This document shows, one piece after another, positions 16,922 through 17,370 of a DNA stretch of 64,000 nucleotides. Position 1 is the first letter of the stretch. Every line of letters starts with the position of its first letter. The stretch is taken from the NCBI GenBank assembly GCA_020846875.1, contig JADLDB010000092.1:1-64000 (forward strand), written 5' to 3'. The position numbers were made by a program, and so were the translations under genes. The notes under the pieces were generated by a model. The model saw nothing but the letters and a program-made list of their open reading frames with translations. It was not told the DNA's origin and made no database searches. Source of the DNA: Myxococcales bacterium (GTDB lineage: Bacteria; Myxococcota; Myxococcia; Myxococcales; Myxococcaceae).

Positions 16922-16994
16922 CGCAGCGCTCACGCAGCGGCCCAGTATCCCGTGGAATTGGGGCCGGTTCATTCCCAATCAAATCATCGGGTTG

Positions 16995-17209
16995 GCCCGC
17001 CGGCGGAGAGGGCCCCTGGCTAGAGCGCCGATCAGGTTGGCGGACCGAGTGACGTCGGTGAGTTGCGAGCAGACCAAGGCGCGACGAGGGAAGCTGCTGG
17101 TGGGCAGTTGACCGAGGAGCAACGACGGGATGCGACGCAAATCGCCGATGTCACGACGGGAGCCAACCTGTTCGGCGCTCTCGCGCGCCTTCACCGCTTT
17201 CCGGCGGGC
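16995..17209. repeat. Long imperfect inverted repeat in the sigma/kinase intergenic region
   Basis: Arms of about 73 bases (16995-17067 and 17137-17209) are inverted copies of one another, centred on 17101-17102. The core match is GAGCGCCGATCAGGTTGGC at 17022-17040 against the complement of 17163-17181, with one mismatch. GCCCGCCGG (16995-17003) pairs with 17201-17209, and the TCGGTGAGTTGCG region pairs with CGCAAATCGCCGA. The centre itself is palindromic (CTGC...GCAG). Read as protein, both arms give similar short peptides (DVTRSANLIGALAR and DVTTGANLFGALAR), so the arms may be an inverted duplication of a former coding piece. No function is known to me. The 160 bases after it hold only the upstream region of the kinase gene. 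Confidence 0.7.
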
Positions 17210-17370
17210 CACCGCCCGGCAGGCGCCCACCCGCAGCGGGCCGGAGCGGGGTGAAGCCGCGTCGAGGCTTCGCGGTGGGTGGACTTCCGCGCCGACTCTG
17301 CCCATCCTCCTTTCGAGGCGCTGCCGGAACGTCCCGGCCCGGCTGACGCGTTCCACGGGGGAGCTGCCCA

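Follow-up and report, generated by a model that had tools for sequence, protein, structure and literature searches.

A 164-bp element at positions 17,020–17,183 of the window (the whole 64,000-nucleotide stretch of DNA analyzed) is probably a MITE with IS1182-type ends, carrying a conserved cassette that folds as a single strand and that has been passed between lineages through the exchange of its ends. Sequence comparison reveals copies dispersed in the genome, ends identical to those of IS1182, a core conserved between different arms, and the marks of selection for folding on one strand. Non-autonomous elements are usually regarded as decayed insertion sequences, with conserved ends and a middle that is free to change. 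Across lineages, this picture is mostly reversed here: the folded middle is conserved and the ends differ. If confirmed, this would constitute a family of structured RNA (or single-stranded DNA) present over much of Myxococcota and having no Rfam match, and transposase switching by a non-coding passenger would become testable.

The element in the window and its copies in the same genome

The boundaries of the element, which include both target-site copies, are given by the full copies of its own genome and by the matching ends of IS1182, and its strand (+) is set by the conserved core. The left target-site copy, CTAG (17,020–17,023, no strand assigned), is recognized from the CTAG flanks of other copies and from the CTCAG/CTCGG site of the Anaeromyxobacter version. 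It is followed by the left terminal inverted repeat, AGCGCCGATCAGGTT (17,024–17,038, + strand), the structured core (17,039–17,164, + strand), the right terminal inverted repeat (17,165–17,179, − strand; reverse complement AGCGCCGAACAGGTT), and the right target-site copy (17,180–17,183, no strand assigned), which reads CTCG in the window and CTAG in most other copies. The core forms a long hairpin in which tandem G.A steps recur, supported by a sequence alignment (A2), pair counts, and covariance-model hits; the strings conserved in A2 are GGACCGAG, GCGAGCAG, AGGCGCGACGA, GAGGAGCAACGA, and GATGCGACGC (+ strand).

The preliminary description of this region reported a 215-bp imperfect inverted repeat with arms of about 73 bases. 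Such a repeat does exist, and it folds far better than shuffled sequence: the + strand RNA of 16,990–17,215 reaches −151.1 kcal/mol (z −10.0; mean of 200 shuffles −100.4, none of them as good), and the − strand RNA −122.8 kcal/mol (z −6.8). The true unit is nevertheless the shorter one of 164 bp, and the arms, as measured (17,019–17,067 and 17,136–17,184), are 49 nt long and 78% complementary. At either end of the 215 bp, the outermost ~25 nt are missing from the other copies with flanks examined; as the flanks of other copies are unrelated, the outermost pairs are to be counted with the insertion site rather than with the element. Outside the element, GGCCCGCCGG (16,994–17,003, + strand) forms a perfect 10-bp pair with CCGGCGGGCC (17,201–17,210, + strand), which lengthens the hairpin of the window copy and occurs in no other copy examined. 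This outer pair may represent a palindrome that predates the insertion of the element.

The peptide DVTxxANLxGALAR, read earlier in both arms, is indeed present: the − strand ORF 16,979–17,356 includes DVTRSANLIGALAR and the + strand ORF 17,063–17,254 includes DVTTGANLFGALAR. The arms are inverted copies in codon register and, therefore, both give similar peptides; neither ORF has a Pfam match. Rfam gave no match in the window (the best for a 551-base stretch, with an E of 0.15, is far below the gathering score), and the element has no match in the phage collection, the plasmid collection, or the viral contigs.

A sequence search placed the element at 32 same-strand places of its own genome (G000; 7.06 Mb in 200 contigs), with 91–100% identity and E ≤ 3e-19, besides further copies in other genomes. 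Eighteen of these places are internal to contigs and 14 are cut by contig ends (six left parts and eight right parts), which puts the number of copies at about 26 to 32. The unit common to these copies is 164 bp long, with CTAG at both ends (except for the right CTCG of the window copy). Of the 17 copies in which the two junctions are visible, six are missing the 5′ end and one has an internal deletion; the 3′ end is never missing. Copies truncated in 5′ with an intact 3′ end comprise L012, L026, L028, L029, L030, and L183 in this genome, and L050 and L056 in G031; three of these eight (L026, L050, and L056) start at or beside CTAG. They look like products of target-primed reverse transcription and are treated as unexplained; a DDE mechanism does not account for them. 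Copies truncated in 3′ occur outside the own genome (L071, L082, and L324). Large internal deletions that keep both palindrome tips are seen at L181 (928–947), L182 (2258–2277), and L184 (1064–1177) of G000, as expected from hairpin slippage.

Ends and insertion sites

The termini of the element (CTAG followed by AGCGCCGATCAGGTT, and AGCGCCGAACAGGTT followed by CTAG) are, letter for letter, the ends of IS1182-family copies in two related genomes, L318 in G013 and L319 in G022, which have the left end CTAGAGCGCCGATCAGGTT and the right end CTAGAGCGCCGAACAGGTT. The match covers 19 nt per end, CTAG included, and extends to the single difference between the two ends, a T on the left and an A on the right. 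The G013 IS1182 corresponds to NF033551 (298 bits, for a cut-off of 270), and its G022 relative is 78% identical, with one stop codon; G022 carries three identical IS1182 copies, with CTAG flanks and the ends GAGCGTGTTG. Both elements read in G013, the holder of the matching IS1182, have other ends (L295 and L324).

Searches for an IS1182 transposase found none in the own genome or in several others that are rich in copies of the element; in the own genome, the mover is thus absent, lost, missed, or another enzyme. IS1182 was rejected as a universal partner, as it is missing from many element-bearing genomes. The IS1182 loci of G060, G001, G062, and G066 do not match the local element ends, and the comparison of the ends of 18 DDE_Tnp_1 loci (8 genomes) with those of local elements gave a clear match only for L305, whose ends fit the element of the window rather than the elements of the genome that carries it. 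Among the loci compared, no insertion sequence was found as a partner for the other arm families, the match being restricted to the IS1182 pairs. In G085, the CTAGAGCTCATCTC strings close to an IS701 gene were considered as insertion sequence ends and left unused, since element fragments are as likely given their orientation and the point where the stretch ends. The core covariance model found nothing in seven IS1182 or IS-end loci (best E 0.37). Two G009 loci matched in a DNA search of 60 genomes, L041 and L049, combine the CTAGAGCGCCGATCAGGTT end with a different interior; they resemble insertion sequence ends, namely the left end of the G013 IS1182, more than elements, and are probably IS fragments.

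A target duplication can be read at the L060 site, where Anaeromyxobacter sp. PSR-1 (G067) has a single CTCAG when the site is empty and G045 has CTCGG...CTCAG when it is filled, i.e., a duplication of 5 bp. Nine G045 sites were searched in PSR-1, of which seven gave an element-free match across the junction; the six besides L060 are blurred by divergence, some with a partial target and some without a clear one. Tandem copies have one common CTCAG. Target duplication is, thus, shown in one lineage, that of the Anaeromyxobacter version with CTCAG. In window-type lineages, CTAG flanks are seen at copies, the right flank of the window copy being CTCG. IS1182 itself is flanked by CTCAG in G045 and by CTAG in G022. 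All ten IS1182 copies of G045 are bordered on either side by ctcag or a close variant; half of them (L197, L200, L206, L213, and L214) abut an element at the CTCAG end, one lying between two elements.

The earlier suggestion of a mobile-element footprint was right in kind, what is found being a whole non-autonomous element. It has the features of a MITE: a short length (164 bp, under 500 bp), ORFs without a Pfam match, terminal inverted repeats, target-site duplication, and ends in common with an autonomous insertion sequence, the latter through L318 and L319, outside the own genome. The complete genome G045 has 44 matches, 41 of them full length, and its copies split 16 versus 25 between the replication strands, a difference that is not significant by eye (the origin being assumed at base 1 and the terminus at ~2.5 Mb).

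Spread, folding, and inheritance of the core

The DNA search of 60 genomes (own genome included) gave 11 with a match, some of them short. A search for the core pattern in a collection of 84,980 species genomes yielded 61 stretches. Ten were dropped as chance or unclear (L066, L068, L082, L083, L094, L096, L100, L102, L115, and L120), of which L082 was later seen to be a 3′-truncated element, and L071 and L112 were set aside as incomplete. The elements retained belong to Myxococcaceae, Polyangiaceae, Myxococcales, and Anaeromyxobacter records and to MAGs labelled Deltaproteobacteria, as well as to one Elusimicrobia MAG (three contigs) and one Nitrospirae MAG; as the last two records are MAGs, mis-binning is possible. 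A covariance model built from 30 elements found the core in 40 of 195 genomes of the phylum and 28 of 90 genera (E ≤ 1e-6, the best 14 candidates per genome being scored). The spread across the phylum is patchy, with multiple copies in some genomes.

The retained stretches, together with the loci from the own genome and the 60-genome search, make up 60 unique elements, of which 30 form alignment A2. Over 63 drawn pairs and 30 sequences, 86% of cells are paired, and 44 pairs show changes on both sides. These both-side changes occupy 354 cells, versus 120 in shuffles and 49–121 when the columns are slid by 1 to 3, although drawing the structure from the folds of these very sequences somewhat favors the pair statistics. 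The internal loops are largely invariant, and GA/GA steps recur in them, as in CCGAGCC with GGCGACGG and GCGAGCA with TGCGACGC.

The + strand folds better in all 60 unique elements, with both RNA and DNA parameters. Mismatches within the arms are telling in this respect: when a strand-neutral score is used to align the left arm with the right arm in reverse, 45 G.T and no A.C are counted in 37 elements, which are not fully independent (20 of the 60 unique elements and 17 covariance-model loci, contig-edge loci and repeated lineages being left out). A fixed-column count in the basal helix gives 64 G.T and 13 A.C, seven of the latter coming from the poorly aligned L093 and L111. Among new changes in 11 own-genome and 17 G045 copies, counted at all paired positions (arms and core), G.T and A.C are equally frequent (10 each), and the two distributions differ (45:0 vs. 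10:10; Fisher p 1e-6). As mutation is even and A.C is nevertheless missing from the arms, the A.C class is removed over time. Such an excess of G.T implies that folding is required of the + strand, whether in the form of RNA or of single-stranded DNA. The contrast between arm mismatches and new mutations is a clean sign of one-strand folding selection, and points to a + strand selected to fold; sequence data alone are compatible with both RNA and single-stranded DNA.

Between lineages, the core is 58–85% identical, while the arms are often unrelated. In 78 pairs from 13 lineages, the mean identity is 0.71 for the core and 0.40 for the arms, the core exceeding the arms in 70. For instance, the own and Anaeromyxobacter elements have identities of 0.71 in the core and 0.25 in the arms, and the Anaeromyxobacter and Elusimicrobia ones 0.83 and 0.18. 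The opposite pattern, with arms closer than cores, is seen between the own element and those of Baikal, Polyangiaceae, and one G001 family, whereas the Anaeromyxobacter and Nitrospirae elements are alike in both (core 0.77, arms 0.72). Judging from these identities, cores and ends appear to have separate inheritance.

Competing explanations and known systems

In the explanation favored here, an IS1182-type DDE transposase would act in trans on the element: it would cut the outer ends, and insertion would duplicate the target, CTAG or, for the Anaeromyxobacter version, CTCAG. The identity of the ends suggests that the own-genome copies were moved by such an IS1182 transposase. Between the ends would lie a conserved folding cassette, most likely a putative transcribed structured RNA rather than single-stranded DNA. 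The cassette would pass between lineages by replacing its own ends with ends from other insertion sequences; this exchange presumably occurred by recombination, in which case the other arm families would be the ends of other insertion sequences. By analogy with Correia/ERIC, the fold might be a hairpin that binds a protein or an RNase and acts on the transcript of which it is part, a suggestion made with low confidence. A DDE transposase does not explain the one-strand folding or the 5′-truncated copies of the own genome.

These two features are compatible with a retro-element comparable to a bacterial SINE or to retrotransposed msDNA, in which a reverse transcriptase acting in trans would copy the RNA and insertion at CTAG would start with the 3′ end. 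In the own genome, truncation affects the 5′ end only (6/17 vs. 0/17) and recurs twice in G031, three of the eight truncated copies start at or beside CTAG, and an RNA intermediate would fold in a strand-specific manner. Such an origin is, however, very unlikely, since 3′-truncated copies exist elsewhere, both ends match a DDE insertion sequence, and RVT_1 was found neither in G045, with its 41 full copies, nor in G054, G039, G060, G064, G065, G066, and G067. As genomes with many copies have none, reverse transcriptase was rejected as the mover. The own genome has one RVT_1 match above the cut-off (L031, 1021–2325; G000:C146), on a contig other than that of the window, which reads like a group II intron protein, and no retron reverse transcriptase adjoins the element there or in G045. 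Still less probable is a REPIN-like element, i.e., a folded single-stranded DNA moved by a Y1 (HUH) transposase such as RAYT. The strand-specific hairpin with conserved mismatches recalls that of REPs (PMC8266576), and Y1_Tnp matches occur in many element-bearing genomes. This association at the genome level, nevertheless, goes with no neighboring element within about 1.5 kb of 30 Y1_Tnp loci, and Y1/RAYT was rejected as the mover; G001 and G031 carry the element without a Y1_Tnp match, and the 5-bp target duplication and the DDE-type ends also argue against it. A scan of 59 loci (30 Y1_Tnp and 29 RVT_1) for the element gave one strong hit, at a reverse transcriptase locus, and none at a Y1 locus. 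In NC_groundwater_1649 (L160/L093), an element of a second arm family lies ~0.85 kb from a reverse transcriptase gene, on the opposite strand.

An ordinary IS1182-derived MITE, with a core conserved through recent horizontal spread and a fold devoid of function, would suit the patchy, locally multi-copy distribution and the lack of preference among within-genome polymorphisms. It is an unlikely alternative given the 0.83 core identity against 0.18 in the arms, the 354 both-side changes, the 45:0 ratio of arm mismatches, and the lack of the core in the seven IS1182 or IS-end loci. The preliminary description had also proposed a large RNA hairpin in the leader of the kinase gene, or an inverted duplication of a gene remnant. 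The element does lie between an ECF-type sigma factor gene (− strand) and a Ser/Thr kinase gene (+ strand), on the kinase strand, and the structure holds; but the same sequence stands at unrelated places, as a dispersed family and not as a kinase-leader feature. A gene remnant fits neither the ORFs, which match no protein family, nor a core kept as paired structure, and the probability of either origin is negligible.

Several known systems resemble the element in part. Retron msDNA and its chromosomal copies, known from myxobacteria, form a long hairpin of ~160 nt; unlike for retrons, several element-bearing genomes have no reverse transcriptase. REP/REPIN sequences have the RAYT gene as a neighbor, whereas no such gene (Y1_Tnp) was found beside the element at the 30 Y1_Tnp loci. 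They are, like the element, palindromic, high-copy, and endowed with a strand-specific hairpin and conserved mismatches, but PMC8266576 and PMC3733652 describe 20–40 bp units and a GTAG tag, neither of which was found for the element. The Correia/NEMIS, ERIC, and RUP elements are bacterial MITEs with transcripts predicted as long stem-loops, and both Correia and ERIC influence mRNA, in an orientation-dependent way as reported for ERIC (PMC2229807 and PMC10969869). They share with the element a length of 100–200 bp, terminal inverted repeats, target duplication, and a long hairpin, but are listed with TA at their termini, compared with targets of CTAG or CTCAG here. The element further differs from them by a core common to lineages (in MAGs, phyla) despite unrelated terminal repeats. 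IS1182 (NF033551) has the same 15-nt terminal repeats and CTAG flank in its G013 and G022 copies, whereas the element lacks a transposase gene and its core is missing from the IS1182 loci searched.

In the literature covered, with few subscription papers, neither the element nor any IS1182 MITE at CTAG is described, and no case of a common core with exchanged ends was seen. SINEs are retroposons. The nearest idea is offered by V-SINEs, SINEs with a highly conserved domain, which are eukaryotic and resemble the element at the level of the idea. According to PMC6887750, they carry this domain on otherwise fast-changing elements and, in one case, spread on the MER6 DNA transposon. The element can tentatively be seen as a bacterial counterpart of these conserved-domain SINEs, in which the conserved unit would be the RNA instead of the transposon end, and this ancient functional RNA might survive by moving between genomes and by swapping its ends for the terminal repeats of any resident DDE insertion sequence.
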